A stretch of 64,000 nucleotides of DNA from Tragulus kanchil (Eukaryota; Chordata; Mammalia; Artiodactyla; Tragulidae): the NCBI GenBank assembly GCA_022376925.1, contig JAIOJX010000031.1, forward strand, positions 140,820,854 through 140,884,853, given 5' to 3'. Shown here piece after piece: positions 1 through 59,999 of the stretch (position 1 is the first letter of the stretch; every line of letters starts with the position of its first letter). Under the pieces are notes generated by a model. That model saw nothing but the letters and a program-made list of their open reading frames with translations, ran no database searches and was not told the DNA's origin. The position numbers and the translations under genes are program-made.

Positions 1-439
1 AAGAAGATGTGGTACATATACAAAGGATTTATTACTCAGCCATGAAAAAGAATGGATCTGGTTGGATGTAGTGAGTTGGAGAACCTAGAGCCTATTATGC
101 AGAGTGAAATAAGTCAGAAAGAGAGAAACAAGTTTGTATATTAATGCATATATATGGAATCTAGAAAAATGGTAATGATGAACCTATTTGCAGAGCGGGA
201 ATGGAGACACAGACATAGAGAATGGACTTGTGGTCACAGTGAAAGAAGGAGAGGTTAGGACAGACTGAGAAAGTAGCATTGACAAATACGGATATAGCTC
301 ACTATCACGTATAAAAGAGGCAGTGGAAAGCGGCTGTGTAACTCAGGGAGCCCAGCCTGGTGCTCTGTGACAACCTAGAGAGGTGGGATTGGAAGGGGGA
401 GAGGGAGGCTCCAGAGGGAGGGAAGAGATATATATAAAA

Positions 440-521
440 TGTGTATGTATCTATGTGTGTATTGTGTATATATATATTATGTGTATATATCTATGTATGT
501 ATGTTGTGTATACATATATAT
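440..521 (+). repeat. TG/TA-rich simple repeat
   Basis: Alternating TGTATGTATC and TATATA tract following the L1 fragment; the duplicate copy is at 1556-1637. Confidence 0.8.
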
Positions 522-685
522 GGGCTTCCTGGTAGCTCAGCTAGAATGGAGCAAGTGAGAAGCCCAGCGCTCCCAGTGTGTCAGCTAACCCTGGCCCTGC
601 ACCCACGCCTGCCACGGTGTGAACGGCTCTGCATGCTCCAGCCCTGTCTTCATCTGCGGGCAGCCAGGAGAGATTCAGATAAGAC

Positions 686-1530
686 GAGCAGACTTCTCCA
701 CAGATGGCCCGTAAACCCTCGAAAAGATGCCAACACCACTCATTATTAGAGAAATGCAAATCAGAAGTCCACTGAGGTATCACCTCACACCAGTCAGAAT
801 GGCCATCATCAAAAAGTCTACAAGCAATACATGCTGGAGAGGGTGTGGAGAGAAGGGAACCCTCCTACACTGTTGGGAGGGATTGTAATGATCCATTCAC
901 AGAATGTTTGTGATACAGCTACCATGGAGAACAAGGTGGACATTCCTTGAAAAACTGGGAATAAAATCACCGTATGACTCAGCAGTCCCCTACTGGGCGT
1001 AAACCCTGGAAAACCACAATTGAAAAGGACACATGGACCCCAGGGTTCATTGCAGCACTATTTACAATAGCTGGGACATGGAAGCAACCTAGATGTCCAT
1101 CGACAGATAAACAGATAAAGAAGATGTGGTACATATACAAAGGATTTATTACTCAGCCATGAAAAAGAATGGATCTGGTTGGATGTAGTGAGTTGGAGAA
1201 CCTAGAGCCTATTATGCAGAGTGAAATAAGTCAGAAAGAGAGAAACAAGTTTGTATATTAATGCATATATATGGAATCTAGAAAAATGGTAATGATGAAC
1301 CTATTTGCAGAGCGGGAATGGAGACACAGACATAGAGAATGGACTTGTGGTCACAGTGAAAGAAGGAGAGGTTAGGACAGACTGAGAAAGTAGCATTGAC
1401 AAATACGGATATAGCTCACTATCACGTATAAAAGAGGCAGTGGAAAGCGGCTGTGTAACTCAGGGAGCCCAGCCTGGTGCTCTGTGACAACCTAGAGAGG
1501 TGGGATTGGAAGGGGGAGAGGGAGGCTCCA
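686..1530 (+). mobile_element. 5'-truncated L1 LINE fragment (ORF2 3' part)
   Basis: The sense strand resembles the end of L1 ORF2 and its 3' region: GAAAAGATGCCAACACCACT, CACCAGTCAGAATGGCC, then GATGTCCATCGACAGATAAA and TACTCAGCCATGAAAAAGAA. Reading frames are broken (a 62-codon fragment at 974-1162). The last 420 bp are also seen at 1-430 in the upstream duplicate copy. Confidence 0.85.
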
Positions 1531-1638
1531 GAGGGAGGGAAGAGATATATATAAAATGTGTATGTATCTATGTGTGTATTGTGTATATATATATTATGTG
1601 TATATATCTATGTATGTATGTTGTGTATACATATATAT

Positions 1639-1950
1639 GGGCTTCCCTGGTAGCTCAGCTGGTAGAGAATCCGCCTGCAATGCAGGAGACCCCATTTTGA
1701 TTCCTGGGTTGGAAAGATCCCTTGGAAAAAGGATAGGCTTACCCACTCCGGTATTCTTGGGCTTCCCTGGTGGATCAGTTGGTAAAGAATCTGCCTGCAG
1801 TACAGGAGATCTGGGTTCGATCCCTGGGTTCAGAAGATCCCCTGGAGAAGGGATAGGCTGCCCAGTCCAGTGTTCTTGCCTGGAGAATTCCATGACTTGT
1901 CCATGGGGTGGCCAAGAGTCAGACACGACTGAGCGACTTTCACTTCTCTT
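1639..1950 (+). mobile_element. Bov-tA SINEs, truncated head plus full copy
   Basis: A head-to-tail pair: a first SINE of about 120 bp (1639-1758) runs directly into a second complete Bov-tA (1759-1950) ending at GACACGACTGAGCGACTTTC. Both have the tRNA-like box (GGTTCGATCCCTGGGT type). Confidence 0.9.
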
Positions 1951-2595
1951 CACAATATATATTTGTGAGTTATTGCTGTGTAACAAATCACGCTAAGACT
2001 TAGGGACACCACCTGTAGTTATTCCTTAAGCACCTATGGATTGGTTGGAGCAATTGTATTGATCTGGGCTGGGCTAGGCTAGGCTGATGTGGGCAGGGCT
2101 TCCTCATGCTTCTGAGGACCATTGGCCAGAAGATGAGTCTAATGCCTATGGCATGACGCTGGGTTTAGGGAAGAACTCTCTGGGACACGCTGACCACCCT
2201 GCAAGTGCATGTCGCATTCCTCCAGCCAGCAAGACCAAACCTTTGTGCTACAGTAATTGGCCTCTAAGAGAGGAAGTGGAAACCCCATGTGCCTTCTCCA
2301 GTTTCCTGATGCCTCCCATTTTCGGCAGTCCGATTGGCCAGAGCAAGTCCCATGGCTCAGCTCAGTGTTGGTGTAGATGGACATTGCCAGACGGGGTTTC
2401 TGTGGCGGGGTGTGAACCTGGTGTCGCCACTTTCTAAATGTGTGTGTAACCTTTGTCGTCATTCAGCCTGCGTCCATTTTCTCATCCGTAAAATGGACAT
2501 AATCGTCGAAGGGATGTGGCAAGGGTTTTGAAAGAAGATCAGTCTAACGCCTACAGCATAACACATGGCACACAGGGTAAGCGCTCAGGAAGGTC
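1951..2595 (+). repeat. Ancient interspersed repeat remnants, MIR-like at the end
   Basis: From 1960 the TTGCTGTGTAACAAATCACG motif resembles an old mammalian repeat whose family I cannot name. The stretch at about 2400-2595 reads like a sense MIR (CATTTTCTCATCCGTAAAATGGACATAAT followed by a GGCACACAGGGTAAGCGCTC end). Confidence 0.5.
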
Positions 2596-4775
2596 AGCAA
2601 TGATGGTGATTAGAAGTGACCCTGGATCACAGGTACCCAGTCATGGATAGTGACCGGCGCGGGGGGCGTTCTCGCCTTTGGCTTCCGCGAATGAGCGCGT
2701 CGTCTCATCCGTCTAGGACGGCCCCCGCCGAGGTTGTCTGTCCCAGACTGTGGATGGCAGAGACCTCGTGATGCCACAGCCCCGCCCTGCAGCCGCCGTG
2801 CCCCCGAGGGCTCTGGGCGGTCATCTGTAGATGGTAGAAAGTCCCGGACACCCAGACAGAGGTCCCAGGTGTGGGCGTGGGCGTGGGGGCACACGAGCCT
2901 CTGGATGAAAGAACCTGCAGTGCACCAGGCGGCGATCGTGTCCCTGGCTCCCTGGAAGAGTTGTGGACAGTGCTGGATGCACGATCGTGCGAGAGAACAG
3001 AGAGGGTCCTTTTGCCTTTCTTTTTCCTTCACACTTGGCCTTTCATGGAATTTTGTTCCGGAGTGGGGAAATCTGCCTTTAGAGGCCGATGTTGATCACG
3101 CAGTGTCTGCCGCTGTAGACAGGCACCGAAGGGCCCGCAGGGGCGGCCAAGGCCCCTCGCTGGCATTTGTACCAAACACGTGACTGAAGCGGAGTCAGGG
3201 GACACGGGCCGTTCCAGCTGGTCCACTCGGGAGCTGGCGGGACCTCGGTGGGAGTGCAGGGGAAGGCGCCCCAGCAGCTGGGCCGTGTCAGCCGCGCGGA
3301 GATGAAGTCCCTGCTGGCCAAGGAATGCTGGGCCTAAGTCTGCGATGAGGCTGCTTTGGAAGCACGTCCTGGGCCTGGAAGAATCTGAGTGCCCTGGGCA
3401 GCTGGCCCGAGAGGGGACTTGGGGCCGGAATGCCGGGAACTGAGAGCTGGCCTGACTTCTGAGGCCCGAGGAGCTGGCTCCGCGGAGGCGTCGCTGCCTC
3501 CAAGACCCGGCCGCCCAGGGCTTGCCCAGGCAGGGCCTTCCTCCTCCCGATGCCCTCCTCAGCCGCCAGGGTCTCCTGTCCTTCCTCTCTGTCTCCCAGA
3601 CCCTGTGGTCTGTGTCCGAGTTTTTCCGTTCTCCTCTTAGAAGATGGAAATAGTGAGAAAAATGATAGCGGGAGAATCCACAGGGCTAACAGCAATGATG
3701 GTGATTAGAAGTGACCCTGGATCACAGGTACCCAGTCATGAGCGTGGGGCGTTCTCGCCTTTGGCTTCCGCGAATGAGCGTCGTCTCATCCGTCAGGACG
3801 GCCCCCGCCGAGGTTGTCTGTCCCAGACTGTGGATGGCAGAGACCTCGTGATGCCACAGCCCCGCCCTGCAGCCGCCGTGCCCCCGAGGGCTCTGGGCGG
3901 TCATCTGTAGATGGTAGAAAGTCCCGGACACCCAGACAGAGGTCCCAGGTGTGGGCGTGGGCGTGGGGGCACACGAGCCTCTGGATGAAAGAACCTGCAG
4001 TGCACCAGGCGGCGATCGTGTCCCTGGCTCCCTGGAAGAGTTGTGGACAGTGCTGGATGCACGATCGTGCGAGAGAACAGAGAGGGTCCTTTTGCCTTTC
4101 TTTTTCCTTCACACTTGGCCTTTCATGGAATTTTGTTCCGGAGTGGGGAAATCTGCCTTTAGAGGCCGATGTTGATCACGCAGTGTCTGCCGCTGTAGAC
4201 AGGCACCGAAGGGCCCGCAGGGGCGGCCAAGGCCCCTCGCTGGCATTTGTACCAAACACGTGACTGAAGCGGAGTCAGGGGACACGGGCCGTTCCAGCTG
4301 GTCCACTCGGGAGCTGGCGGGACCTCGGTGGGAGTGCAGGGGAAGGCGCCCCAGCAGCTGGGCCGTGTCAGCCGCGCGGAGATGAAGTCCCTGCTGGCCA
4401 AGGAATGCTGGGCCTAAGTCTGCGATGAGGCTGCTTTGGAAGCACGTCCTGGGCCTGGAAGAATCTGAGTGCCCTGGGCAGCTGGCCCGAGAGGGGACTT
4501 GGGGCCGGAATGCCGGGAACTGAGAGCTGGCCTGACTTCTGAGGCCCGAGGAGCTGGCTCCGCGGAGGCGTCGCTGCCTCCAAGACCCGGCCGCCCAGGG
4601 CTTGCCCAGGCAGGGCCTTCCCCTCCTCCCGATGCCCTCCTCAGCCGCCAGGGTCTCCTGTCCTTCCTCTCTGTCTCCCAGACCCTGTGGTCTGTGTCCG
4701 AGTTTTTCCGTTCTCCTCTTAGAAGATGGAAATAGTGAGAAAAATGATAGCGGGAGAATCCACAGGGCTAACAGC
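2596..4775 (+). repeat. Tandem duplication B, offset about 1080
   Basis: Copy 1 is 2596-3693 and copy 2 is 3691-4775, sharing AGC at the joint. Differences are a cluster of indels at 2646-2715 against 3740-3795, close to the start of copy 2, and a 2-bp insertion near 4621. About 800 bp between these are identical. The content is non-repetitive, moderately CpG-containing intron. Confidence 0.92.
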
Positions 4776-5794: not shown

Positions 5795-5795
5795 A

Positions 5796-5930: not shown

Positions 5931-6359
5931 TCTCATTATTCCCAGGAAGCCCTTGGTGGGGAAGGAGGGCATTCTTACCTTCCACCCTTCTAGCAGATGT
6001 AGGAAACATCTTCCTGGCTTTGGGATTAAACAGGAAAGTCCAAGTCACCAAAGTTGACTCCTTCATGAAGTAATAATCCTCTCCTGTACATTTTATATAG
6101 AAGGCTGCCCAGCTTTTGCTTGAGTGCTTTCCTGTGACGGGGAGCTCACCACCTTGAGAAGCCTCTTTTCTTTACTGGATGGCTCCAGCTCCTATAAGGA
6201 CAGACTGAGCCCTTTCTGCCACGAGTTCTGCTCTGCCTTCAAGAGGCCCCCAGAACTGACTTTCTCAGCTGAAGGGAGGAAGCCAGCCGGTCCCACCCTT
6301 TCCTACAGGTCATCTGGCGTCTTCGGTTGGAGTTTCTACCGCTTCACCATGGTGTTGTC
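5931..6359. other. Intron DNA with an old repeat-like stretch
   Basis: The GACGGGGAGCTCACCACCTT motif near 6137 resembles an ancient mammalian repeat; nothing else was recognised. Confidence 0.4.
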
Positions 6360-6389
6360 TGCTCCTCCGCTCTGAAGCTGTGTGCTCGG

Positions 6390-6545
6390 CAGTAGCTTCC
6401 TTAGTCTTTCTGAATCTTAGTGTCTTTATCTGTAAAACAGTGGATTGCGATAGTCCACACCTCAATTTCTTGCAAGGCTTACATGAGTCAATGTGTGTAA
6501 AGTATTTAAGACAGGGTTTGGTACCTGCTAAGTAAATACATATCG
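6390..6545 (+). repeat. MIR-like element (second copy 7470-7625)
   Basis: CTTTATCTGTAAAACAGTGGA followed by GTAAAGTATTTAAGACAGGG and GGTACCTGCTAAGTAAATA has the order of a sense MIR. The downstream copy is due to duplication C. Confidence 0.7.
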
Positions 6546-6620
6546 ACTCTCCCTCTGAAGTCATCTTTCTGGTTATCATGAGATGAGGGCTTTCTGAACT
6601 TGAATGTGCGTATGAATTAG

Positions 6621-6865
6621 GACCGATGCTGAAGCTGACGCTCCAGTGTCTTGGTCTTCAGATGCAAACGGCCGACTCATTGGAACAGTCCCTGATGCTG
6701 GGACAGACTGAGGGCAGAAGGAGCAGAGGGTGTCAGGGCGAGATGGCTAGACAGCATCGCTCATGCAATGGGTATGAACTTGCAAACGCTGGGAGATGGT
6801 GAGGGACAGGGAGGCCTGCCGTGCTGCCGTCCATGGGGTCGCAAACGTTGGACATGACTGGGTGG
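6621..6865 (+). mobile_element. BovB LINE 3' end
   Basis: ACCGATGCTGAAGCTGACGC, CTGATGCTGGGACAGACTGA, then CCATGGGGTCGCAAACGTTGGACATGACTG in order, the usual BovB 3' end. Diverged from the consensus. Confidence 0.85.
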
Positions 6866-7699
6866 ATGAACAGTGAAGAATCCTTGAAACGTGGAGATAC
6901 TGATTTAGTAAGTGAGGTGGGACCTGAGACTCTGTGCGTCTGGCAGCTTCCCAGACCATAGAGAGACTGCGGCCCCTCAGGCCACGCTCTGAACAGCAAG
7001 GCAAGTGGACCCACTTGTTTATAGATGAACATCGTTTTCCAAGTGGGGCCTGTCCTATTCCGGTGATAGTAGAATCATCGCCTCCAATGATATAGACGTA
7101 GTGCTTCTGTGAATGCAGCCTAAGATTAACGTAGGAGGGAGAAGTATCACCTTGACTATCAAGGTAGCTTTCACCCTCTGGCTTCGGAATCTGAACTAGG
7201 GACTTACTGAACAGTTGTCCTGAGGTCTGCATGTATCCTGATGGATCTGAGCGAACCGGAGGATCTCTGCAGTATGACATGCTTCCAGGCGTCCATCAGC
7301 TCCTGAGATGTGTCACTGAAGCAGAAGAGGGAGCCCCACGGGGTCCGACAGAGCGGCTTTGCCCGGGGCAGCGGTGGCTCACTCAGATGGGTAGCGGGAG
7401 AAGCCGGCCCGGGTCGGGACAGGTCAGCGCCCTGGTGCTGCTCCTCCGCTCTGAAGCTGTGTGCTCGGCAGTAGCTTCCTTAGTCTTTCTGAATCTTAGT
7501 GTCTTTATCTGTAAAACAGTGGATTGCGATAGTCCACACCTCAATTTCTTGCAAGGCTTACATGAGTCAATGTGTGTAAAGTATTTAAGACAGGGTTTGG
7601 TACCTGCTAAGTAAATACATATCGACTCTCCCTCTGAAGTCATCTTTCTGGTTATCATGAGATGAGGGCTTTCTGAACTTGAATGTGCGTATGAATTAG

Positions 7700-7945
7700 G
7701 ACCGATGCTGAAGCTGACGCTCCAGTGTCTTGGTCTTCAGATGCAAACGGCCGACTCATTGGAACAGTCCCTGATGCTGGGACAGACTGAGGGCAGAAGG
7801 AGCAGAGGGTGTCAGGGCGAGATGGCTAGACAGCATCGCTCATGCAATGGGTATGAACTTGCAAACGCTGGGAGATGGTGAGGGACAGGGAGGCCTGCCG
7901 TGCTGCCGTCCATGGGGTCGCAAACGTTGGACATGACTGGGTGGA
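7700..7945 (+). mobile_element. BovB LINE 3' end, duplicate of 6621-6865
   Basis: Identical to the preceding copy at offset 1079, with the same diverged positions, so it is a copy made by duplication C and not a second insertion. Confidence 0.85.
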
Positions 7946-8867
7946 TGAACAGTGAAGAATCCTTGAAACGTGGAGATACTGATTTAGTAAGTGAGGTGGG
8001 ACCTGAGACTCTGTGCGTCTGGCAGCTTCCCAGACCATAGAGAGACTGCGGCCCCTCAGGCCACGCTCTGAACAGCAAGGCAAGTGGACCCACTTGTTTA
8101 TAGATGAACATCGTTTTCCAAGTGGGGCCTGTCCTATTCCGGTGATAGTAGAATCATCGCCTCCAATGATATAGACGTAGTGCTTCTGTGAATGCAGCCT
8201 AAGATTAACGTAGGAGGGAGAAGTATCACCTTGACTATCAAGGTAGCTTTCACCCTCTGGCTTCGGAATCTGAACTAGGGACTTACTGAACAGTTGTCCT
8301 GAGGTCTGCATGTATCCTGATGGATCTGAGCGAACCGGAGGATCTCTGCAGTATGACATGCTTCCAGGCGTCCATCAGCTCCTGAGATGTGTCACTGAAG
8401 CAGAAGAGGGAGCCCCACGGGGTCCGACAGAGCGGCTTTGCCCGGGGCAGCGGTGGCTCACTCAGATGGGTAGCGGGAGAAGCCGGCCCGGGGTCGGGGA
8501 CAGGTCAGCGCCCTGGTGCTGTTGGGAGTCCCTGATGTCCAAGTGATCCCATGCTTGGAGAGGGACATTTGCACCTATGTGTACTTTTCCTGCTCAGTTC
8601 ATTCAGCGTGCCAGTTTTCTATCGGAGGAACCCATTTTTCTTAAAGATTTAAATGCCAATTTCAAGTTGGATTCCCATAAGCAAGTGAGACTGAGAGTGT
8701 ATGTTTAGAACGACAGACCAGATACCCTAGGGGTGGATCCTATAGTTACCAATCTGATCGTGAGACCCATTCCAAAGTTATGGTGAGGCTGCCGCTTTAA
8801 CCTATTGTTTTGTTGTTTTTATATCTGATCCTGCTGGGTCATGCTCTTCTCTGGGCAGACATGGAGT

Positions 8868-10509: not shown

Positions 10510-11486
10510 GTACTGAAAGAAAAAAAAAAGGCCTGCCAGTGGAGAATACTATACCTGGCAAACCTGTTCTTCAGAAATGAAAGAGGGAAAATTCTTCCCA
10601 GACACATATTATGGAGGCCAGTAGATCTGCCTTACAAGAAATACTAAAGGGAGTCCATCAACAGTAATGTGATAACATAAGAAAGTATAAAACTTACTGG
10701 TAAAGGTAAATACATAGACAAATATAGAATACCATAATAACAGTGGGTAAATCACTTTTGATTCTAGTACAAAAGTTATACGACCAAGTATTAAAAATAT
10801 CTCTAGGGGCTTCCCTGGTGGTCCAGGGAGTAAAGAGGCTGCCTTGCAGTGCAGGGGTCACCAGTTCGATCCTTGGCCCAGGAAGATCCCATGTGCCACA
10901 GAGCAGCTGGACTGGTGTGTCCAATTACGAGCCAGCACTCTGGAGCACATGTGCCCAGAGCCAGTGCTCTGCCACGAGAGAGGCCACTGTGATGGGAGGC
11001 CCACACAGGCCGAAGAATAAAGATGGATGAAAATAAATAAATTAGAAAACCAATAGCAAAGAGGAAGAAACCTCTGGAAAAGAGTGTTAATAAATGAACA
11101 CTATAAACAGATGTGAATTGGGACAACAACAAGGTAAAGTGTGGCGTGGTTGAAGTAAGGGTTAAGTTTTCCTAGGTTTGATTTTTTGAACCTAACTTTT
11201 CAGCAACTTAAAATAGACTCTCATAACTGAGGTAGTCTATGCCAGGCCCATGGGAACCACAAAGAAAATACACAGAGAAGCTACACAAAAGGGGAAGAGA
11301 GGAGTGAAAACATAGCAAGAAAAATCCAATAAAACAGCCAAGTGGACCGCGAGAGGGCAGAGAATTAAAAGACGGACAGCGGCATGAGCCAAATGGCTGT
11401 GGTGGATCCTCCCCGTTCCACAGTTCCTTTAAATATAAATGGATTAGAGTCTCCAGTTGAAAGACACAGAGTGGCTGGATAGATTA
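10510..11486 (+). mobile_element. Old L1 LINE 5'-region fragment, interrupted by a SINE
   Basis: GAATACTATACCTGGCAAAC, CCTTACAAGAAATACTAAAGG and, beyond the SINE at 10807-11031, AAATGGATTAGAGTCTCCAG then GACACAGAGTGGCTGGATAG are motifs of old mammalian L1 5' regions. No open frame remains. The 11160-11486 part is repeated at 12347-12673. Confidence 0.6.
10807..11031 (+). mobile_element. CHR/SINE2-type SINE
   Basis: GGGGCTTCCCTGGTGGTCCA head, CCAGTTCGATCCTTGGCCCA box, body ending GATGGGAGGCCCACACAGGC and an A-rich GAAAATAAATAAATT tail. Confidence 0.9.
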
Positions 11487-11521
11487 AAAAAGAAGAAGAA
11501 GAAGAAGAAGAAGAAGAAAAA
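11487..11521 (+). repeat. (GAA)n microsatellite
   Basis: About ten AAG/GAA units after an A run; the duplicate with the same repeat count is at 12674-12708. Confidence 0.95.
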
Positions 11522-12139
11522 ACAACCGCTATGGGCTGTTTGTAGGAAACTCCTGGGGTTTTGTTTGGTTCTGTGTTTCTGTCGTCCAGTCTGCCAAACA
11601 GCCAGCGAGGGACGAGCGCTCACAGCCCACTCCCCTGGCCTCGTGAATGTCAGCCGGCTTTCAGGCCGTATGAGGGTAGGGCTGTGCGTTGCTAGTCGTG
11701 CCCTGTAATTAGTGGGGCCGCCTCGAGGATGCTCTCCCTGGCAAGTAGTGGCTCTAGTCTGGGCCATTCTTGTGCCCCTAGAAAGGAACTGGGCAGGCCG
11801 ATCATGTGGAATCCGTCTTTTGACCTTGGCATTGTACATAACCTCTCTGGCCAGTCCAGCCTTTCTGTTTCTGGAAGAGGTCCAACCTTCTCCAGGTCTG
11901 TTTGGCCCAACCTCAATGCCCTATATTGATCCTTTTGTGCTCATACAGATAATATAAGAACATATCAATACCTCATATGAGATTGGCATACATCCCATGG
12001 AAAAGGCAAAATTCATACCTTCCTATATGTCAAAGACAATGAATGCTAGAGATATTCACAGTCATGCTTTTTGGTGGGGAGGGGAATCATTCTCCTTTTG
12101 TATATGTTTCTTCGTTATGTACTTTACATTAACCTTTAG

Positions 12140-12315
12140 TTTTATTTATTGAACATTTATGTAGAGCGTCCAATGAGCTAGACACTGTCCTAAGCACTGA
12201 ACCATCACAACCGCTCCACGAGGAAGGTATTGTTATTTCCCCGTGATACGAAAGAGGACACAGAGGCACAGAGAAGTTAACAACTGGCCCAGCATCTCAC
12301 AGACGGGGCCAGCAT
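12140..12315 (-). repeat. MIR-like element (also 13327-13505 and 14411-14590)
   Basis: ATTGAACATTTATGTAGAGC, TAGACACTGTCCTAAGCACTG and GAGGCACAGAGAAGTTAACA follow the antisense order of MIR-type repeats. Three copies exist because duplications D and E overlap. Confidence 0.7.
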
Positions 12316-12673
12316 CTGGGCCACTATAAACAGGGGATTTTTGAAGGGTTAAGTTTTCCTAGGTTTGATTTTTTGAACCTAACTTTTCAGCAACTTAAAA
12401 TAGACTCTCATAACTGAGGTAGTCTATGCCAGGCCCATGGGAACCACAAAGAAAATACACAGAGAAGCTACACAAAAGGGGAAGAGAGGAGTGAAAACAT
12501 AGCAAGAAAAATCCAATAAAACAGCCAAGTGGACCGCGAGAGGGCAGAGAATTAAAAGACGGACAGCGGCATGAGCCAAATGGCTGTGGTGGATCCTCCC
12601 CGTTCCACAGTTCCTTTAAATATAAATGGATTAGAGTCTCCAGTTGAAAGACACAGAGTGGCTGGATAGATTA

Positions 12674-12708
12674 AAAAAGAAGAAGAAGAAGAAGAAGAAG
12701 AAGAAAAA
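12674..12708 (+). repeat. (GAA)n microsatellite, duplicate copy
   Basis: Same length as the tract at 11487-11521. Equal repeat number in an unstable trinucleotide argues for a very recent or artificial copy. Confidence 0.95.
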
Positions 12709-13221
12709 ACAACCGCTATGGGCTGTTTGTAGGAAACTCCTGGGGTTTTGTTTGGTTCTGTGTTTCTGTCGTCCAGTCTGCCAAACAGCCAGCGAGGGAC
12801 GAGCGCTCACAGCCCACTCCCCTGGCCTCGTGAATGTCAGCCGGCTTTCAGGCCGTATGAGGGTAGGGCTGTGCGTTGCTAGTCGTGCCCTGTAATTAGT
12901 GGGGCCGCCTCGAGGATGCTCTCCCTGGCAAGTAGTGGCTCTAGTCTGGGCCATTCTTGTGCCCCTAGAAAGGAACTGGGCAGGCCGATCATGTGGAATC
13001 CGTCTTTTGACCTTGGCATTGTACATAACCTCTCTGGCCAGTCCAGCCTTTCTGTTTCTGGAAGAGGTCCAACCTTCTCCAGGTCTGTTTGGCCCAACCT
13101 CAATGCCCTATATTGATCCTTTTGTGCTCATACAGATAATATAAGAACATATCAATACCTCATATGAGATTGGCATACATCCCATGGAAAAGGCAAAATT
13201 CATACCTTCCTATATGTCAAA

Positions 13222-15376
13222 GACAATGAATGCTAGAGATATTCACAGTCATGCTTTTTGGTGGGGAGGGGAATCATTCTCCTTTTGTATATGTTTCTTC
13301 GTTATGTACTTTACATTAACCTTTAGTTTTATTTATTGAACATTTATGTAGAGCGTCCAATGAGCTAGACACTGTCCTAAGCACTGAACCATCACAACCG
13401 CTCCACGAGGAAGGTATTGTTATTTCCCCGTGATACGAAAGAGGACACAGAGGCACAGAGAAGTTAACAACTGGCCCAGCATCTCACAGACGGGGCCAGC
13501 ATCTGGGCCACTATGAAGGGAGGGCTGTGCCTTGCTGCTCATAGTGGCCTGTCGTGAGTGGGGCCACCTCGAGGCCCTTGGCAATGCCTTTGGCCCCGGT
13601 GGCGTCATCCGAGTCCGTGACCCTTAGAGCTCAACCGATCGTGAAATTAACCTAGAGAAGTATTGTTTTCTGAGGTGCACATAGGCTGAGCTTCTGGGGT
13701 CCTGCCTGGGGTGTCTTTGGTGTCTGCTGTTTCTCCGTCTGTGAGTTATGTTTCTCACTCCTGGAGTAGAAAGTGAGGGGCTGGGAGAGCCGCGTGCTAG
13801 GCTGATCCAGAATCTGACGGAGGGAAGCCTTGAGATCCTACACATCTTCCTTGGCCTCAAGGCCCTTTGGCTCCTGAGAGACATGGTCCTGAGAGAGGAC
13901 CAGGGGTTTCGCAGGTGGGCAGTAGCCCTTCAAGGTGGCCTGAAGAACACGGGAAGAACGGAGAGCAGAACCTGGCTGGACTGGTCTTCTCCTGAGCCCT
14001 GGGGGTCATGGACTGTTGGAGCCCTCCCTGTCTCCTTCCTTTGTACAAATGGGGAAAGTGAGGCAGCGTATATGTCTCCCAGGCTAGTATGCCCCCGCCC
14101 CGTGACCACTTGTTTCCTGGTGAGCAGGACTGGGAAGGTAGGGCAAGGCTACAGAGGGATTTGAGTTGATCGGGAATGGGGAGCCGTGGAGAGCTATGGA
14201 GCAGGGGAGGAAGCCTGTGAAAATAAAGAAGTGTTGTGGCAGCTGGATCGGGGTATGTGTCAGGGAGCTGGCCTGGCAGTGTGCTCCCATAGCCCCCTGA
14301 CAGACCCCAGGGACAATGAATGCTAGAGATATCATCGCTTTTTGGTGGGGAGGGGAATCATTCTCCTTTTGTATATGTTTCTTCGTTATGTACTTTACAT
14401 TAACCTTTAGTTTTATTTATTGAACATTTATGTAGAGCGTCCAATGAGCTAGACACTGTCCTAAGCACTGAACCATCACAACCGCTCCACGAGGAAGGTA
14501 TTGTTATTTCCCCGTGATACGAAAGAGGACACAGAGGCACAGAGAAGTTAACAACTGGCCCAGCATCTCACAGACGGGGCCAGCATCTGGGCCACTATGA
14601 AGGGAGGGCTGTGCCTTGCTGCTCATAGTGGCCTGTCGTGAGTGGGGCCACCTCGAGGCCCTTGGCAATGCCTTTGGCCCCGGTGGCGTCATCCGAGTCC
14701 GTGACCCTTAGAGCTCAACCGATCGTGAAATTAACCTAGAGAAGTATTGTTTTCTGAGGTGCACATAGGCTGAGCTTCTGGGGTCCTGCCTGGGGTGTCT
14801 TTGGTGTCTGCTGTTTCTCCGTCTGTGAGTTATGTTTCTCACTCCTGGAGTAGAAAGTGAGGGGCTGGGAGAGCCGCGTGCTAGGCTGATCCAGAATCTG
14901 ACGGAGGGAAGCCTTGAGATCCTACACATCTTCCTTGGCCTCAAGGCCCTTTGGCTCCTGAGAGACATGGTCCTGAGAGAGGACCAGGGGTTTCGCAGGT
15001 GGGCAGTAGCCCTTCAAGGTGGCCTGAAGAACACGGGAAGAACGGAGAGCAGAACCTGGCTGGACTGGTCTTCTCCTGAGCCCTGGGGGTCATGGACTGT
15101 TGGAGCCCTCCCTGTCTCCTTCCTTTGTACAAATGGGGAAAGTGAGGCAGCGTATATGTCTCCCAGGCTAGTATGCCCCCGCCCCGTGACCACTTGTTTC
15201 CTGGTGAGCAGGACTGGGAAGGTAGGGCAAGGCTACAGAGGGATTTGAGTTGATCGGGAATGGGGAGCCGTGGAGAGCTATGGAGCAGGGGAGGAAGCCT
15301 GTGAAAATAAAGAAGTGTTGTGGCAGCTGGATCGGGGTATGTGTCAGGGAGCTGGCCTGGCAGTGTGCTCCCCATA
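13222..15376 (+). repeat. Tandem duplication E, offset 1084-1090
   Basis: Copy 1 is 13222-14292 and copy 2 is 14312-15376. There is about 19 bp of filler at the joint and one 6-bp net deletion at the very start of copy 2 (ATTCACAGTCATGC against ATCATCGC). Because it overlaps duplication D, the segment at 12034-12320 exists three times (again at 13222-13515 and 14312-14600). Confidence 0.92.
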
Positions 15377-15929
15377 GCTGACCGCAGACCAGGAGCCTGG
15401 CTGGACCAAGGTATCACCTGGGCAGCTCTCCCCAGGGTCGGCCAGGTGAGTGGGATGGTCCAGGCTGTGTGGGGGAGGGATGCCATGGCCTCGGTCTCAG
15501 GGTGGAGAGGCCCCATGCACCTGCCTGATGTGCATTCTGGGCAGGGACTTGGCTGCCGCCGCTGCGGACAAAGCTGGCTGGGGCTGTGGGGAGACGCCGG
15601 GCCTATGTTTTGTGCAGGAGCCAGGGCTGGATTCTGGAATAGGCAACCGGCCCAGGTCCCGTCCACGCTGGCCCCACATCAATGAAAGCTGTCGTGGGGC
15701 CAGGGCATTGCTGCCGCTGCCAATGAGAGGGGCAGGGCCTCCTGGGGCTTCTGTCCCCAGAGTCACTGACTCTGTTCTGGCCGGCTGAGGGCACGCTGAA
15801 CCCCTGCCGCACACCCTGCCCACTCTGTGATCCCAGCCCCATTCGGCCCTGCTTGACTTCTCACCCAAGACGGGTTTATCAATACAGAGAAAATACGGGA
15901 TCTACAGAGAGGAGGGATCACCATTTACT

Positions 15930-16035
15930 CTTTTGGCTTCTGTTTTGTATGTTCCAAGCCCTGGGTCAGGTCTGCAGGGCCTTCAGGAATGAAGAAGAAA
16001 GGTACAGTCCCTGTCCTCAATGAGTTTAGCCGTGT
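15930..16035. repeat. L2/MIR-like remnant (copy at 17002-17107)
   Basis: TTCCAAGCCCTGGGTCAGGTC followed by GTACAGTCCCTGTCCTCAATGAG resembles the conserved part of old L2/MIR repeats. Confidence 0.5.
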
Positions 16036-16434
16036 GGGAGACTGGTCTTCCACAAGGAGTAGTCACTAGACCCCTAGGGACAAGGGTGTCACAGATGGCC
16101 AGGGGACAGAGTGGGGACCCTACCGAGTCTGAGGGCCACTGGGGGGCATTTCCAAGAGGGGATGTTAAAGCTAGGATGGAATTAGCTAGAAGGAGAGAGT
16201 AGGGGGAGTGTCTTGGGCAGAGGGGAAGGTGGGCAGGATGGAAAGCATTGACCGTGGGTCAGGTGACGATGGGCAAGGTCAGTTGTAGGTCAGGCTGCCA
16301 CTGGCCCGTTTACCCAGGACAGTTCCCTTCTCTCCTGTTGTCTTAACCTGGTTTTCAAAATTGTCCCCTTTTACTCTCAAAAGTGTCTTGGTTTGGGCAG
16401 TGAAATCATATGGGCACTGCCAGGTCTAGGTATC

Positions 16435-16500
16435 TTTGTTTTACAGATGAGGAAACTGAGGTTCACGAGAATTGGGTTATTCCTGCAAGGTCCGGGCGTG
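16435..16500 (-). repeat. MIR core fragment (copy at 17507-17572)
   Basis: TTTTACAGATGAGGAAACTGAGGTTCACGAG is the familiar antisense MIR core. Confidence 0.65.
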
Positions 16501-17764
16501 AGGATGGGACAGAGCTGGGAGGGGAACTGAGCCTGCTTGACTTGAAAGCCCAGGCTTTCCGTTAATCCCATGCAGCCTTTCACAGTCAGGTATAAGGTTA
16601 CAGACGTATGCAGCTGAAAGGCTCTCTGAGCATGGGCTCTGTGCCCACTGCTGTCCTGGGGTGGGGGGGACAAAGCTGGCTGGGGCTGTGGGAGACGCCG
16701 GGCCTATGTTTTGTGCAACCGGCCCAGGTCCCGTCCACGCTGGCCCCACATCAATGAAAGCTGTCGTGGGGCCAGGGCATTGCTGCCGCTGCCAATGAGA
16801 GGGGCAGGGCCTCCTGGGGCTTCTGTCCCCAGAGTCACTGACTCTGTTCTGGCCGGCTGAGGGCACGCTGAACCCCTGCCGCACACCCTGCCCACTCTGT
16901 GATCCCAGCCCCATTCGGCCCTGCTTGACTTCTCACCCAAGACGGGTTTATCAATACAGAGAAAATACGGGATCTACAGAGAGGAGGGATCACCATTTAC
17001 TCTTTTGGCTTCTGTTTTGTATGTTCCAAGCCCTGGGTCAGGTCTGCAGGGCCTTCAGGAATGAAGAAGAAAGGTACAGTCCCTGTCCTCAATGAGTTTA
17101 GCCGTGTGGGAGACTGGTCTTCCACAAGGAGTAGTCACTAGACCCCTAGGGACAAGGGTGTCACAGATGGCCAGGGGACAGAGTGGGGACCCTACCGAGT
17201 CTGAGGGCCACTGGGGGGCATTTCCAAGAGGGGATGTTAAAGCTAGGATGGAATTAGCTAGAAGGAGAGAGTAGGGGGAGTGTCTTGGGCAGAGGGGAAG
17301 GTGGGCAGGATGGAAAGCATTGACCGTGGGTCAGGTGACGATGGGCAAGGTCAGTTGTAGGTCAGGCTGCCACTGGCCCGTTTACCCAGGACAGTTCCCT
17401 TCTCTCCTGTTGTCTTAACCTGGTTTTCAAAATTGTCCCCTTTTACTCTCAAAAGTGTCTTGGTTTGGGCAGTGAAATCATATGGGCACTGCCAGGTCTA
17501 GGTATCTTTGTTTTACAGATGAGGAAACTGAGGTTCACGAGAATTGGGTTATTCCTGCAAGGTCCGGGCGTGAGGATGGGACAGAGCTGGGAGGGGAACT
17601 GAGCCTGCTTGACTTGAAAGCCCAGGCTTTCCGTTAATCCCATGCAGCCTTTCACAGTCAGGTATAAGGTTACAGACGTATGCAGCTGAAAGGCTCTCTG
17701 AGCATGGGCTCTGTGCCCACTGCTGTCCTGGGGTGGGTGGGGAGCGAGGAGGCTGAATTGAGCA

Positions 17765-38763: not shown

Positions 38764-38901
38764 CACAAGCAGGTTTAGGCATGTAGCAAGCACTGCACGA
38801 AGTAACCGTGTGTTTCTCTGTTCCCATCACACGCCTGGAGCTCAGGTATGTTCGCGCATGAACACCCTCCTCCAGTCCGTCATCGCTTTCCTCTGTAGCT
38901 C

Positions 38902-39824
38902 TCACTGCTTTCTTTCTTCAAGGGAAGCAGTGCCTTGTAAGAAAGAATTAGGACACTCGAGTAAAGGGCCGGCGGCCACTGGTGTGCTAAATTGACTTGG
39001 GAAGCCGCGTCCCCTTCCTGAGCCTGTATCCATGCTTGTAGAGTGGGAATGAGGGCCTGTCCCTGCTGGATTCGCTGAGCTGGTGCAAGGACCGGAGGGC
39101 ATATGCAAGCATTCGCTAAAAGGGACAGCATTTCCCTTCTTCACTCAGAATCAGCGGAGAGAATTGCTGAACGGGTGCCGCCTTTGGACCGTCAAGCCCT
39201 CTCGGCTGGGGCTAGGACAGGCAGCGGGCAGGGGTCTCTGGGTGGGATCGAGGCCTGGGAGGGGCTGAGAGGAGAGTAGACTGTGCCAGGGAGTTCTGGA
39301 AGGGAGCCTGGGCCAGACCCAAGGACCGCGGCCGCGTCCCACCGGCGAGCTGTGATAGAGGCTGACTCCCCGTCTCCTTCCCGGCTGCTGAATCCGGCGT
39401 GCCCTGGAGTGGGCTCCCCCGACGACGTGTGTGCACTGAGAAGCACTCGTGTGAGAGCGTCACACAGTGACCCAGGATTTGGAGACTGACTGGGGACCCG
39501 GTGTCCCTCAGACATTGCTCCATCAAGCAGGTCCCAGACAGAAGCGGGAAGAGGCGCCTGGACAGACGTCTCTGTTGGGGCTCTAGGGTGCTTCTCTGGA
39601 GCATATTCACCTGCAGATCTGGTGGCTGCCCTCAGGCTCCGCTGCTCAGTGGCTCCCCTGAGCCTCAGCTTCTTCCTTGGCTCCGTGGAAAGATGCCCAG
39701 CCTTGGTGCCTGGCGTTGGTCGCGAGGGTCAGGGGAAGGCCTGCAGGATGTAGGATCTGGGGGCTGAGGGGCCCCCAGACACTGACTGCATGGACGTCAG
39801 CACTCTTCCATTTTGTAGGCCTTG
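38902..39824. other. Unique intron DNA
   Basis: No exon or repeat was recognised; a small CpG cluster lies at 39325-39350. Confidence 0.45.
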
Positions 39825-45180: not shown

Positions 45181-45748
45181 TCATAGTTTCAAGTAGCTTG
45201 GGGTTAGATTTTAAAAGTTGAATTTCATCACATGTTTTAACTTGGGCGGGGATGGGGGGAGAGTGGCAGGGACATGATATTTTTAGCCCAAAGAAGGCTT
45301 TTTTTCCCTTTCCCTCTCCCTCTCCTGGCGTTTTCCCCTCCCTCCCCCAACAGATGTTCCGTCTCAATCCTATTCAGACCTCAAAGCAGAGTGGCCATCA
45401 ACTTTCTGCTCTGATGAGAAAAAAAGGCCAGAATGCTATTTGTTGGGAAGGGTTTTTTTTCCCCCCCTTTCTTCTTTCCCTTCAGTCACAACCGGCCCTT
45501 AAATAAAATCTACTTACAGAAAAATGTAACCAGGGGAAGCAGGCGTGAGGAGAAAACGGCCCTGAAAGGAGCAGACATGCGCTGACCGCACCAACCGGCT
45601 TCGCGAGTACGGTGTTGGGTCCATTCTGTGTTGGTGGTGGTGGTGTTTTTCCTGAAAAGCAAGGGCTCCAAGTGCAGGAGAGTTAAGTCAGGATTCTTTG
45701 GGGTCTTTTGGGTACTCAACCCAAGCTCGCTTAAGATCTAGCTCATAA

Positions 45749-45897
45749 GGACTTCTCTGGTGGTCCAGTGGCTGGGATTCCACGCTCCCAATGCAGGGGG
45801 CCTGGGTTCAATTGCTGGTCAGGGAACTAGATCCCACATACCATAATTTAAGACCCAGTGCAGCCAAATAAATAAATAAATATTTTTTTAAAAAAAG
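45749..45897 (+). mobile_element. tRNA-derived SINE (SINE2/CHR type) with target-site duplication
   Basis: GGACTTCTCTGGTGGTCCAG head, GGGTTCAATTGCTGGTCAGG box and AAATAAATAAATA tail. GATCTAGCTCATA at 45735-45747 recurs as GATCTGGCTCATA at 45898-45910. Confidence 0.92.
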
Positions 45898-45982
45898 GAT
45901 CTGGCTCATAGAATTGAAAAATCTTAGGGTAGATTTTACCAAAGAAGGGCTGACTGATCCAGGAGTTCAAACCATGTTATTA

Positions 45983-46008
45983 ACACACACACACACACAC
46001 ACACACAG
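45983..46008 (+). repeat. (CA)n microsatellite (copy 47017-47038)
   Basis: CA dinucleotide run; the downstream copy is a few bases shorter. Confidence 0.95.
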
Positions 46009-46778
46009 GCATGCATACACACGTTCATTCATTCTCTCTCTGCTCATCATCTCTCCTTCTGCCCTCTTGTCTCTCCCAGTAAGGGGACCAAGATGACTAC
46101 TCAACTCTGGGTCCTTGTATCCTGTGAGCTGAGAGATCACAGGTGAAAGAGAGAACCCAGGTCTGTTATTTCTTGCAAAAGTTTGATTCTTACTATACTG
46201 GCCAGGGTAGGTCATAGTTTCAAGTAGCTTGGGGTTAGATTTTAAAAGTTGAATTTCATCACATGTTTTAACTTGGGCGGGGATGGGGGAAGAGTGGCAG
46301 GGACATGATATTTTTAGCCCAAAGAAGGCTTTTTTTACCTTTCCTTTCCCTCTCCTGGCGTTTTCCCCTCCCTCCCCCAACAGATGTTCCGTCTCAATCC
46401 TATTCAGACCTCAAAGCAGAGTGGCCATCAACTTTCTGCTCTGATGAGAAAAAAAGGCCAGAATGCTATTTGTTGGGAAGGGTTTTTTTTCCCCCCCTTT
46501 CTTCTTTCCCTTCAGTCACAACCGGCCCTTAAATAAAATTTACTTACAGAAAAATGTAACCAGGGGAAGCAGGCGTGAGGAGAAAACGGCCCTGAAAGGA
46601 GCAGACATGCGCTGACCGCACCAACCGGCTTCGCGAGTACGGTGTTGGGTCCATTCTGTGTTGGTGGTGGTGGTGTTTTTCCTGAAAAGCAAGGGCTCCA
46701 AGTGCAGGAGAGTTAAGTCAGGATTCTTTGGGGTCTTTTGGGTACTCAACCCAAGCTCGCTTAAGATCTAGCTCATAA

Positions 46779-46929
46779 GGACTTCTCTGGTGGTCCAGTG
46801 GCTGGGATTCCACGCTCCCAATGCAGGGGGCCTGGGTTCAATTGCTGGTCAGGGAACTAGATCCCACATACCATAATTTAAGACCCATAATTTAAGCCAA
46901 ATAAATAAATAAATATTTTTTTAAAAAAA
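46779..46929 (+). mobile_element. SINE, duplicate of 45749-45897
   Basis: Same SINE in the same target site, made by duplication L. The tail differs: CCCATAATTTAAGCC here against CCCAGTGCAGCC in the first copy. Confidence 0.9.
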
Positions 46930-47246
46930 GGATCTGGCTCATAGAATTGAAAAATCTTAGGGTAGATTTTACCAAAGAAGGGCTGACTGATCCAGGAGTT
47001 CAAACCATGTTATTAACACACACACACACACACACACAGGCATGCATACACACGTTCATTCATTCTCTCTCTGCTCATCATCTCTCCTTCTGCCCTCTTG
47101 TCTCTCCCAGTAAGGGGACCAAGATGACTACTCAACTCTGGGTCCTTGTATCCTGTGAGCTGAGAGATCACAGGTGAAAGAGAGAACCCAGGTCTGTTAT
47201 TTCTTGCAAAAGTTTGATTCTTACTATACTGGCCAGGGTAGGTCAA

Positions 47247-52442: not shown

Positions 52443-52467
52443 GTGTGTGTGTGTGTGTGTGTGTGTG
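52443..52467 (+). repeat. (GT)n microsatellite
   Basis: GTGTGT run directly abutting the next SINE. Confidence 0.95.
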
Positions 52468-55840: not shown

Positions 55841-57640
55841 ACGATATCTATTCTATTGGCATGTCAGAAGCATGATGAGACATCTCAAGTGCTTAAAAGG
55901 GTGTCTAGTGCAGAATAAGTACTTTCCTTCTTCCTTCTAAGCAATGGGGATGGACACCCGCAGGTAGCAGGGAAGCCGGCAGTGAACCGGGCACGCTTCC
56001 TGCCTCACGGAGCACGTCCTGGCGAGGGGGACAGAGGAGTGACCCAGACCCAGTCGCTGCAGGGTCCGTGATGTGATGGGGATCTGGGAGCATGGCGGGG
56101 TGGGGGGCAACGAGGCCCCCTGAGTCGGCCCTGGGTGCTGGGGAGTGATGGGCATGTTGGCCACCCCAGACTCTGTGTGGCACCCCAAGGATGGAGCTGT
56201 GGTGGCAGGCGGAGGTTGTGGAGGACAAGTGTGTGCGTTGCACCTCTGGGCATCGAAGCAGGGGCTGGGAGAGGTGATGCCCGGGGGAGCCTTGGGATCA
56301 GGAGGACACTCCCCGCGGAGGGGAGAGCAGAAGCAAAGACCTGGAGGCCCCGAGGCACTGGCTGGCTGGAACAGCAGAGGAGATGAGGCAGGAGCAGGGC
56401 TGAGGCAGGTCACCAGGGGCCCTGAATGCCGGAGCTGAGGGAGCAGGCAGCATCTGGTTGAGGAGGTAGCCGGGGTCCCTGCAGGTCTTCTGGGGTGCTT
56501 GGCAAAGCCAGCACCAAGCCCCAGGACAGAGGGATGAGCCCAGGCCCGGCTCTCTGTCCAGGAAGCGCAAGTGGGTCTGCTTCTAGACGGGGCCCAGCAG
56601 ATACCCGTGACTGCTCTGTGGTCCCCAGCGGGGACTCACCTGAGAGGTCGGGGCCAGGGGGACAAGAAGACACATGTGACAGAGGTCACCGAGGATGGGG
56701 GCAGTTATTTACTGAACTGCTAACCTGAGCGTTCTCTGGAGCTGAGCGGAGGGGCTGGGAGAGGGAATCCTGTGTGCATGCATGTGGATGGAGACGTGTG
56801 TGTGGATGTGTCTATGTCAGTGTGTGTGGATGTCTGTGTGTCCATACGTGTAAGTGTGTGCCCACAAGCGCTCCCTCGTGTACAGGCACGCGTGTGCGGT
56901 GAGTGCTGCAGGACGTGGTGCCGCGGAGAGCAGAGCAGGCCCTTGGCGGGTGTCAGCCGGGTGTGTCCCAGCCGAGGGAAGGCTGACTTTGAACTCAGCG
57001 AGGGCTGCCCAAGAACTGCTGGAGGGAGCTGGCTGGGAGCCGCCGAGGCCTGGGGCAGGGCGGCCATGCTGGGCTCACTCCGCCAGCCTTGGGAGGCCGG
57101 GAGCCGCCCCTCTCTGGCGGGGGGCTGAGTCTGCCCTCGTGCAGAAGGAGAAGGGGGCCATGGCAAGACGAGGAACAGGACGCTCAGGGGGAGTCTTTGC
57201 TTGTCGTCATAGAGCTCGTGGATCTAAAAGGCTGTTTGTGGATTCTGTTTCCCCGAGTGGCCCTCCTTCTGTCTGGGGTTCAGCCAGCCCCTGCATGCGT
57301 GCGCCGGTGACGGGGCTCCCCTCCGCCCTCAGCTCCCAGTCCCTGCGGCCGGACAGCTCGCGCTGTGGGAGCGAGGGTGATGACGATGTTGTTGTGTGAG
57401 TCATTCCAGCAGAGACAATAGCGGCCACCACCGTTAACTGGGCTCTTCTCTGTGCCAAGCTGCTTACGCACTTGTTTCCTGTTCTCTCGAAGAAGGCCCC
57501 ACGGCAGGACTTGGGAGGGGGTCCCAGGGCTCGGGGAAGGAGGGATGCCTGTCACGGGGGCATGGGGGCTGGTGGATGAGCAGGTCTCAGGCAGCTGGGC
57601 TCTGTCTGCTGGGGCCCCCCGAGAACTCATGCTAGATGTG
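55841..57640. other. Unique GC-rich intron DNA
   Basis: Holds a degenerate TG/GTGGATGT tract at about 56765-56900. No exon was recognised. Confidence 0.45.
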
Positions 57641-57844
57641 CTCAGATGTGTTCCCCGCTTGACCCCGTCCTTATTCAGGTTCCCCTAGATCTACAGTCCC
57701 TGACTCACTGCGGCTGCCCTCAGACAGGGAAGCCAGGTGCTTGAGGTGGGACGTGGGCAGCTGTCCACCACGGCTACAGGGGAGCGCCGAGGGGGCCGGG
57801 GAGACATGGGTTGGGGTGGCTCATGCTCCCAACCACCTTCTGAG

Positions 57845-57930
57845 GTCAATACCATCACTGTCCATAGTTTGTACAAGGGGAAACTGAGGTAGAGAGAAGA
57901 GCCAGGCCGTGTCCAAGGTCGCACAGCTGC
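57845..57930 (-). repeat. MIR-like core (copy at 58945-59030)
   Basis: CAAGGGGAAACTGAGGTAGAG then CCAAGGTCGCACAGCTGCAG is the antisense MIR layout. In the copy GAAACTGAGG has become GACCTGAGG-like. Confidence 0.65.
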
Positions 57931-58354
57931 AGAGGGCCAAGCCCAGGCTGGCACTCATCAGCTCCTAATGCTCCTCCCGTCCTGCCTTCCAGGGCAGGTG
58001 GTTCCACTGGGAGTCCCGCCATGGCTCTCCAGGTATCCCTGTGTCTTCCAGTAGCTTCTGCCCCCAGGTCCAAGCGCCTTCTTCCGGAGAAGAAGAAGTT
58101 CCTCCTCTCAGAACCCTCCCTTGTGTTTCCTTCGCCTTTGAAGACCCGAGAGTGTCTGGCCCCTCTCCCCAGGCCCAAGCTGCCCTGCCCGGCTTGGCCT
58201 CTCTCCTGGGCCTGTCGTGTCTTGGTCATCACGCGCTTCCTCACACAGGGCCCGGGGAGGGCAGCGGGGAGAGGCTGGCGGCCCCGTGACCAGCCTCCGG
58301 TATTCCAGCCGCCGGGGAACTGGCTGCACTCGCCTGTTGTCTGTTTGCGTCCAG

Positions 58355-58450
58355 GAGCTGCAGTGTGACGTGTCTGTGGAGGAAGACAGCCGGCAGGAGT
58401 GGACCTTCACGCTGTATGACTTTGACAACAACGGCAAGGTCACCCGAGAG
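58355..58450 (+). CDS. NKD1: NKD1 EF-hand exon, first copy
   Basis: This is a 96-nt (32-codon) exon with acceptor CGTCCAG ending at 58354 and donor GTGAGC from 58451. It reads ELQCDVSVEEDSRQEWTF and continues TLYDFDNNGKVTRE. The EF-hand loop begins at the Asp of YDFD: D-F-D-N-N-G-K-V-T-R-E fills loop positions 1-11, with acidic or Asn ligands at 1, 3 and 5 and Gly at 6; position 12 must come from the next exon, which is not in the window. In NKD proteins this EFX region is what contacts Dishevelled, which is how they restrain Wnt signalling. The exon is symmetric (phase 0-0), so skipping or repeating it keeps the frame. It lies in the duplication at 57641-59835, and an identical copy sits exactly 1,100 bp downstream. 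Confidence 0.95.
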
Positions 58451-59454
58451 GTGAGCGCCCCCGCCCGGCCCCTCTCCGGCCCTTCATGGTGCTGCCCACC
58501 ACTGCTGCCTCTTCCCCTTCTCCTCAGGGCAGGCGGGGAGGGCAGGAGCCGGGCTGCTGGGAGCTTCTTGGAAACCTGTGAGTAGGAAGAGGCGACAGAG
58601 AGGAAGGGCCGCCAGAGAGGAAGGGCCGCCAGGCTGCTCTTGGGCGGGAGGGGCAAGAGGCAGGCGCAGAGCCCCAGACCTCCCTAGAGGACCTGCTCCC
58701 CAGCAGAGGCCCGTCCTGCCTCCTTCTCTCTCTGGTCCTGAGCTCAGATGTGTTCCCGCTTGACCCGTCCTTATTCAGGTTCCCCTAGATCTACAGTCCC
58801 TGACTCACTGGGGCTGCCCTCAGACAGGGAAGCCAGGTGCTTGAGGTGGGACGTGGGCAGCTGTCCACCACGGCTACAGGGGAGCGCCGAGGGGGCCGGG
58901 GAGACATGGGTTGGGGTGGCTCATGCTCCCAACCACCTTCTGAGGTCAATACCATCACTGTCCATAGTTTGTACAAGGGGGACCTGAGGTAGAGAGAAGA
59001 GCCAGGCCGTGTCCAAGGTCGCACAGCTGCAGAGGGCCAAGCCCAGGCTGGCACTCATCAGCTCCTAATGCTCCTCCCGTCCTGCCTTCCAGGGCAGGTG
59101 GTTCCACTGGGAGTCCCGCCATGGCTCTCCAGGTATCCCTGTGTCTTCCAGTAGCTTCTGCCCCCAGGTCCAAGCGCCTTCTTCCGGAGAAGAAGAAGTT
59201 CCTCCTCTCAGAACCCTCCCTTGTGTTTCCTTCGCCTTTGAAGACCCGAGAGTGTCTGGCCCCTCTCCCCAGGCCCAAGCTGCCCTGCCCGGCTTGGCCT
59301 CTCTCCTGGGCCTGTCGTGTCTTGGTCATCACGCGCTTCCTCACACAGGGCCCGGGGAGGGCAGCGGGGAGAGGCTGGCGGCCCCGTGACCAGCCTCCGG
59401 TATTCCAGCCGCCGGGGAACTGGCTGCACTCGCCTGTTGTCTGTTTGCGTCCAG

Positions 59455-59550
59455 GAGCTGCAGTGTGACGTGTCTGTGGAGGAAGACAGCCGGCAGGAGT
59501 GGACCTTCACGCTGTATGACTTTGACAACAACGGCAAGGTCACCCGAGAG
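59455..59550 (+). CDS. NKD1: NKD1 EF-hand exon, second copy
   Basis: This is a second, base-for-base identical copy of the EF-hand exon, with the same acceptor (GCGTCCAG to 59454) and donor (GTGAGC from 59551). If both copies were real and spliced in, the protein would gain an in-frame repeat of 32 residues with two incomplete EF-hand loops, because the twelfth loop residue of the first copy would become the Glu that starts the second. I know of no NKD family member with such a repeat. The surrounding 1.1 kb of intron is duplicated with it, so I infer a false duplication in the assembly; only one of the two exons is likely to exist in the animal. Which copy carries the true flanks cannot be told from the sequence. 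Confidence 0.8.
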
Positions 59551-59999
59551 GTGAGCGCCCCCGCCCGGCCCCTCTCCGGCCCTTCATGGTGCTGCCCACC
59601 ACTGCTGCCTCTTCCCCTTCTCCTAAGAGCAGGCGGGGAGGGCAGTAGCCGGGCTGCTGGGAGCTTCTTGGAAACCTGTGAGTAGGAAGAGGCGACAGAG
59701 AGGAAGGGCCGCCAGGCTGCTCTTGGGCGGGAGGGGCAAGAGGCAGGCGCAGAGCCCCAGACCTCCCTAGAGGACCTGCTCCCCAGCAGAGGCCCGTCCT
59801 GCCTCCTTCTCTCTCTGGTCCTGGAGCTCTGAGCTCACCCCCGGCCACTTCCCACCTCGGCCAGTCTGCCCAGGAGCTGGGGTGGGCTGGGCACGCAGAG
59901 GCCCCCATGCCTCTCCCCACCGATGCGGGAGTGAGCAGCCCAGCCCCAGGGCCCTGCTTGTGGCTCTGGGAAGCAGAGCCCGAACGTCACAGGATTGTT

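Follow-up and report, generated by a model that had tools for sequence, protein, structure and literature searches.

False duplications in genome assemblies have been described in several forms. According to the Vertebrate Genomes Project, homotype false duplications lie at contig boundaries, measure about one read length and consist of tandem copies with a gap between them (PMC8081667). Kelley and Salzberg (2010) described neighbouring contigs with overlapping ends that had been laid side by side, and attributed them to haplotype divergence (PMC2864568); that study and Ko et al. (PMC9516828) also treat errors of a related kind and what these do to exons and genes. The assembler wtdbg2 cuts reads into segments of 1024 bp, from which its vertices are formed by merging (PMC10989838). 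Here we analyse a 64,000-base window of the Tragulus kanchil assembly GCA_022376925.1 (contig JAIOJX010000031.1, positions 140,820,854 to 140,884,853 of the forward strand; "the window" below is this whole stretch), which contains 13 long direct pairs of nearly identical sequence, A to M, each repeating about 1.1 kb. The pairs are, with a probability that we put at roughly 93%, false duplications that arose in assembly, where adjacent consensus pieces sharing an end of about 1.1 kb would have been left unmerged. The observation itself is correct and sharp, and what underlies it is very likely an artefact.

The window pairs work like a known assembly error, in an unusually dense, fixed-length and gapless form. 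As in the homotype class, one locus stands twice in tandem, the overlapping ends are apparently unmerged, and the size is apparently set by the data of the assembler; unlike in that class, the doubled length here is 1.1 kb, the joints in the window are gapless, and the doubling recurs every 4–5 kb or so, not at contig ends alone. Tandem doubling at putative piece borders is seen in all 13 window pairs and in 31 complete pairs sampled elsewhere in the assembly, but the gap between copies that belongs to the class is missing from the window. Given this, we do not file the pairs as strict members of the homotype class. The contigs of Kelley and Salzberg are likewise end-overlapping neighbours placed side by side; the present pairs, in contrast, hardly vary in length, and in most of them the copies diverge little or not at all.

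The window was compared with itself using blastn, and pairs of more than 90% identity were kept. This recovered the 13 long pairs, all head to tail with 97.6–100% identity between copies (pair A being partial), together with a few short pieces. The original prediction, made from the letters of the window, of thirteen near-identical direct pairs of nearly one size was thus borne out, the offsets spanning 1031–1187 bp (Table 1). Twelve of the 13 pairs are complete, while pair A is truncated by the start of the window. Among the complete pairs, copy 1 measures 1100 bp on average (standard deviation 37, range 1034–1171), the mean offset is 1103 bp (standard deviation 44), and the gap between copies runs from −7 to +44 bases. 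Because the pairs other than A are 1.0–1.2 kb long at 97.6–100% identity, chance is excluded. The second copies in the blastn output total 13,633 of the 64,000 bases (21%), in agreement with an earlier estimate of about 14 kb of redundant sequence. No inverted repeats of at least 200 bp at 94% identity or more were found in the window or in the sampled stretches, and the only other direct repeats in the window above these thresholds are two secondary matches, at offsets of 2277 and 2280, which join non-adjacent members of the D-E and G-H chains described below.

The same pairs occur across the assembly, which comprises 3,167,203,957 bases in 32 contigs, at least 16 of them longer than 60 Mb; the window lies at 140.82–140.88 Mb of the contig that we label C30. 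Twenty 10-kb stretches were requested at round coordinates fixed before any sequence was seen, of which 15 existed, on 14 contigs, and every one of these 15 holds at least one pair. The 39 blastn rows at offsets of 900–1400 bp correspond, by our own reading, to 37 distinct pairs, two of which are split into two rows. A visible joint marks 31 of the 37 as complete, with a mean offset of 1114 bp (standard deviation 40, range 1022–1209). For the 44 pairs of window and sample together, offsets range over 1022–1209 bp around a mean of 1112, the two smallest being 1022 and 1025 bp. Among the sample's direct-repeat rows of at least 200 bp and at least 94% identity, 38 of 44 fall at 1.0–1.25 kb; the remaining six comprise a single row at 717 bp, three rows from members of chains at 2244–2284, and a repeat of 265 bp seen at 1481 and at 2556. 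The repeat at offset 717 (L009:3882-5558; 95.2% identity) is unlike the 1.1-kb pairs and is possibly a true local repeat. Second copies make up 38,275 of the 148,456 known bases sampled (26%).

Extrapolating from 13 pairs in 64 kb and 37 in 148 kb gives approximately 0.6–0.8 million pairs assembly-wide, and subtracting 21–26% of second copies from 3.167 Gb leaves about 2.35–2.49 Gb, both figures being drawn from the 15 stretches and the window only. These numbers bear on the idea, raised in the original prediction in case the pairs were real, of an undescribed fixed-length duplication process, that is, recent fixed-step tandem doublings of about 1.1 kb throughout this ruminant genome, exons and homeobox clusters included. 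The pairs do exist in the deposited sequence, and many of their joints have a few shared bases or a short insert, as end joining would leave. Biological duplications would, however, be tied to particular loci and show a spread of lengths, and what we find is doubling in 15 of 15 stretches with one narrow length peak. The process would have had to make equal-length duplications by the hundred thousand, through homeobox clusters too, and almost all at one time, since the copies are nearly identical. It would also leave unexplained why differences accumulate at copy ends, and it is very unlikely indeed.

Pair D was additionally searched against the whole genome. Among 41 scored matches, the two copies of the pair itself are the only ones of full length. 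The third match is its chain neighbour, and the others are short, with identities no higher than 90%. Same-strand distances below 20 kb number 16; 14 of them lie at 1070–1187 bp, and the other two involve a third, partial copy in the window. The search also yielded five 3-kb loci beyond the window, three of which show a pair in part or in full. A dispersed tandem repeat or transposon family with a 1.1-kb unit could account for the nearly equal unit length, but the contents of the pairs are unrelated, as had been claimed from the sequence at the outset, and long matches between pairs connect chain neighbours only. With no mutual similarity among the pairs, and with full-length matches to pair D limited to its own copies, a shared repeat family was rejected and its likelihood is negligible.

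The arrangement of neighbouring pairs speaks to how the doublings may have come about. Two chains of overlapping pairs, D-E and G-H-I, contain 49–293 bp that are present three times. The unit of the D-E chain (12344-14293, 1950 bp) overlaps both of its neighbours; that of the G-H chain (25051-27051, 2001 bp) has 261 bp in triplicate, and that of the H-I chain (27056-29198) measures 2143 bp. Pieces between successive visible joints (n = 27) span 1,808–12,534 bp with none shorter, and ten of them are 1,808–2,143 bp long; in each of these ten, the shared end on the left overlaps the one on the right. Ten short overlapping pieces are the pattern that a tiling path would give, each piece carrying two anchors of about 1 kb, and this tiling of short units suggests that the joints are borders of assembled pieces. 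A similar symptom, with equal-length shared ends and noisy edges, would follow if gap filling or chunked polishing had concatenated pieces of fixed overlap untrimmed, in which case a fixed overlap would be natural. The joint spacing, however, varies from 1.8 to 12.5 kb without a fixed chunk length, and the shared length has a standard deviation of about 40 bp, whereas a cut overlap should be exact. Because the joints are irregularly spaced, we regard fixed-chunk processing as the less likely cause and give it only a slim chance.

Differences between copies are concentrated near the ends. In the 43 complete pairs (12 from the window and 31 from the sample) there are 165 differences in 47,386 aligned bases, with 67 in the 4,300 bases within 50 bp of a copy end and 98 in the 43,086 bases elsewhere (odds ratio 6.9). 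The excess fades inward, from 19 in 2,150 bases at 25–50 bp to 17 in 4,300 at 50–100 bp and 81 in 38,786 deeper; it extends beyond the outermost bases, where the aligner can add noise, so that a surplus of differences at the ends of pieces has good support. The window pairs have 15 insertions or deletions (indels) no more than 50 bp from a copy end, and every one is a loss from the copy whose end abuts the joint, with pair A and the longer form of pair F included. In the sample, the 50 bp next to the start edge contain 21 indels, 18 of them losses in copy 2. The one-sidedness of base loss is supported at this edge only. Single-base changes account for 63 of the 99 indels, and 54 lie in homopolymers; single-base and homopolymer indels are typical of noisy long reads.

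The amount of divergence also bears on heterotype false duplication, in which the assembler would have set two parental haplotypes side by side. False duplications have been described as arising from divergence between haplotypes (PMC2864568), and the inner substitutions of pairs I, L and M look allelic. Against this, pair D is identical over 1171 bp, several other pairs differ by only one or two indels, and two haplotypes offer no reason for a single 1.1-kb length across 43 pairs. With identity too high and length nearly fixed, haplotype duplication was rejected as the general cause and we consider it improbable. Pair I carries five substitutions within 115 bp and pair M a 17-bp difference; the inner differences of these two pairs possibly reflect two haplotypes used for adjacent consensus units.

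In the favoured explanation, unmerged overlaps between assembly pieces, the assembler would build on anchors roughly 1 kb long (1024 bp in wtdbg2). A consensus unit would begin with one anchor, end with the next and contain both, so that adjacent units would share one. The end-to-end merge would fail about once per 4–5 kb, perhaps from a higher error load at unit ends, and both copies of the anchor would then be kept, although each pair would be single copy in the animal. In wtdbg2, neighbouring units share a vertex and are joined by end alignment, and the 1024-bp vertex would set the length of the doubling. We lean slightly towards wtdbg2 or a close relative as the source program. The likeness to wtdbg2 units lies in an offset floor of 1022 and 1025 bp and in a unit floor near two vertices (1808–2143 bp), the minimum of 1808 bp among the 27 pieces agreeing with units that hold at least two, possibly overlapping, vertices; the mean offset here, at 1.11 kb, differs from the program's vertex, and the link to wtdbg2 is our deduction.

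Several observations weigh against unmerged overlaps as the cause. The mean offset of about 1.11 kb is 9% longer than a 1.024-kb vertex, an excess that needs an extra assumption, either reads that lack bases or vertices whose borders are fuzzy. There are no N bases anywhere in the window, and thus none at its joints. The one-sided loss of bases replicates incompletely, since at the end edge of the sample pairs only 1 of 9 indels within 25 bp, 5 of 14 within 50 bp and 13 of 22 within 100 bp are losses in copy 1. The inner substitutions of pairs I, L and M need either reads from two haplotypes or consensus errors specific to single units. Two of the short 3-kb loci (L006 and L007) show no pair, and literature searches aimed at this failure, including in wtdbg2, found no report of its exact form. 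On the other side, the false-duplication artefact preferred in the original prediction is supported by the doubling in 15 of 15 stretches, the doubling of homeobox segments, the clustering of differences at copy ends and the tiling. The proposed origin in unmerged contig ends is supported as to the unmerged overlap and needs refinement as to the ends: because the joints lack N, the pieces look like consensus units linked within one contig and unlike separate contigs that a scaffolder had connected.

Table 1. Positions of the direct pairs A–M and of the exon-like segments in the window (numbered from its first base); offsets are between the two copies.
Feature	Span	Strand	Copy 1	Copy 2	Offset (bp)	Remarks
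Pair A	1..1660	+	ends 542 (start precedes window)	ends 1660	1117	
Pair B	2595..4775	+	2595-3693	3690-4775	1095	
Pair C	6359..8521	+	6359-7440	7438-8521	1079	
Pair D	11157..13514	+	11157-12327	12344-13514	1187	100% identity, 1171 bp
Pair E	13222..15378	+	13222-14293	14312-15378	1090	chained with D
Pair F	15566..17743	+	15566-16670	16668-17743	1072	
Pair G	23871..26216	+	23871-25035	25051-26216	1180	
Pair H	25956..28153	+	25956-27051	27056-28153	1100	chained with G
Pair I	28105..30330	+	28105-29198	29237-30330	1132	chained with H
Pair J	32340..34513	+	32340-33424	33428-34513	1088	
Pair K	36744..38905	+	36744-37826	37822-38905	1078	
Pair L	45181..47245	+	45181-46214	46212-47245	1031	
Pair M	57637..59829	+	57637-58745	58739-59829	1102	
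Exon-like segment, pair M copy 1	58355..58450	+				96 nt, phase 0; CAG before, GTGAGC after
Exon-like segment, pair M copy 2	59455..59550	+				identical to copy 1 segment

Genes are affected as well. A homeobox search of the assembly gave 439 candidates, of which 150 were scored, and 85 of the 150 scored matches sit in a same-strand pair 1.0–1.25 kb apart. Same-strand distances of 1.0–1.25 kb among the scored matches number 44, on 16 contigs, and do not represent 44 independent doublings, because genes with several homeoboxes are counted repeatedly. The other distances comprise 13 below 1 kb, 8 at 1.25–2 kb, 6 at 2–3.5 kb, none at 3.5–6 kb, 4 at 6–10 kb and 25 at 10–20 kb. Four dense clusters, chosen by eye from the table of matches and presumably the HOX clusters, contain 11 such pairs among 33 matches; we know of no constant 1.1-kb doubling of single HOX homeoboxes in mammals. 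In addition, open frames of approximately 980–1134 aa with several homeobox matches are present on C30 (near 165.72 Mb) and on another contig, C31 (near 86.58 Mb), where three matches step by about 1.1–1.2 kb, as if chained pieces lay within one large exon.

Both copies of pair M contain the 96-nt exon-like segment listed in Table 1, which resembles an EF-hand exon from a gene of the Naked cuticle (NKD) type. Ten open reading frames of the window, including one around this segment, were scanned with Pfam, and no family was returned. At pair M, gene models drawn from this assembly could falsely contain the exon twice, in frame.

More generally, a chromosome-scale public assembly seems to hold about one fifth to one quarter of false second copies, and its users would meet false exon duplications, gene copies and tandem-duplication polymorphisms, along with an inflated genome size. 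Because the 1.1-kb doubling is genome-wide and takes in homeobox segments, copy numbers taken from this assembly would be unreliable. The signature, a self-alignment peak at offsets of 1.02–1.21 kb, offers an easy screen for other long-read assemblies.

A few further features of the window pairs concern their joints and contents. SINE heads were found in the window and, with the BovB sequence named in the original prediction, suggest a ruminant. With a gap permitted close to its start, pair F extends past its main blastn piece. In the blastn pieces, the joints of D, E, F, G and I carry linkers of 15–44 bases between the copies. Reading the linkers as noisy continuations of a flanking piece gave results for D, E, F, G, H, I and J: with noise allowed, nothing is left over at E, F and J, 2 bases are left at G and at H, 8 at D and 38 at I. 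Several linkers resemble such a continuation, while those of D and I are partly unexplained.

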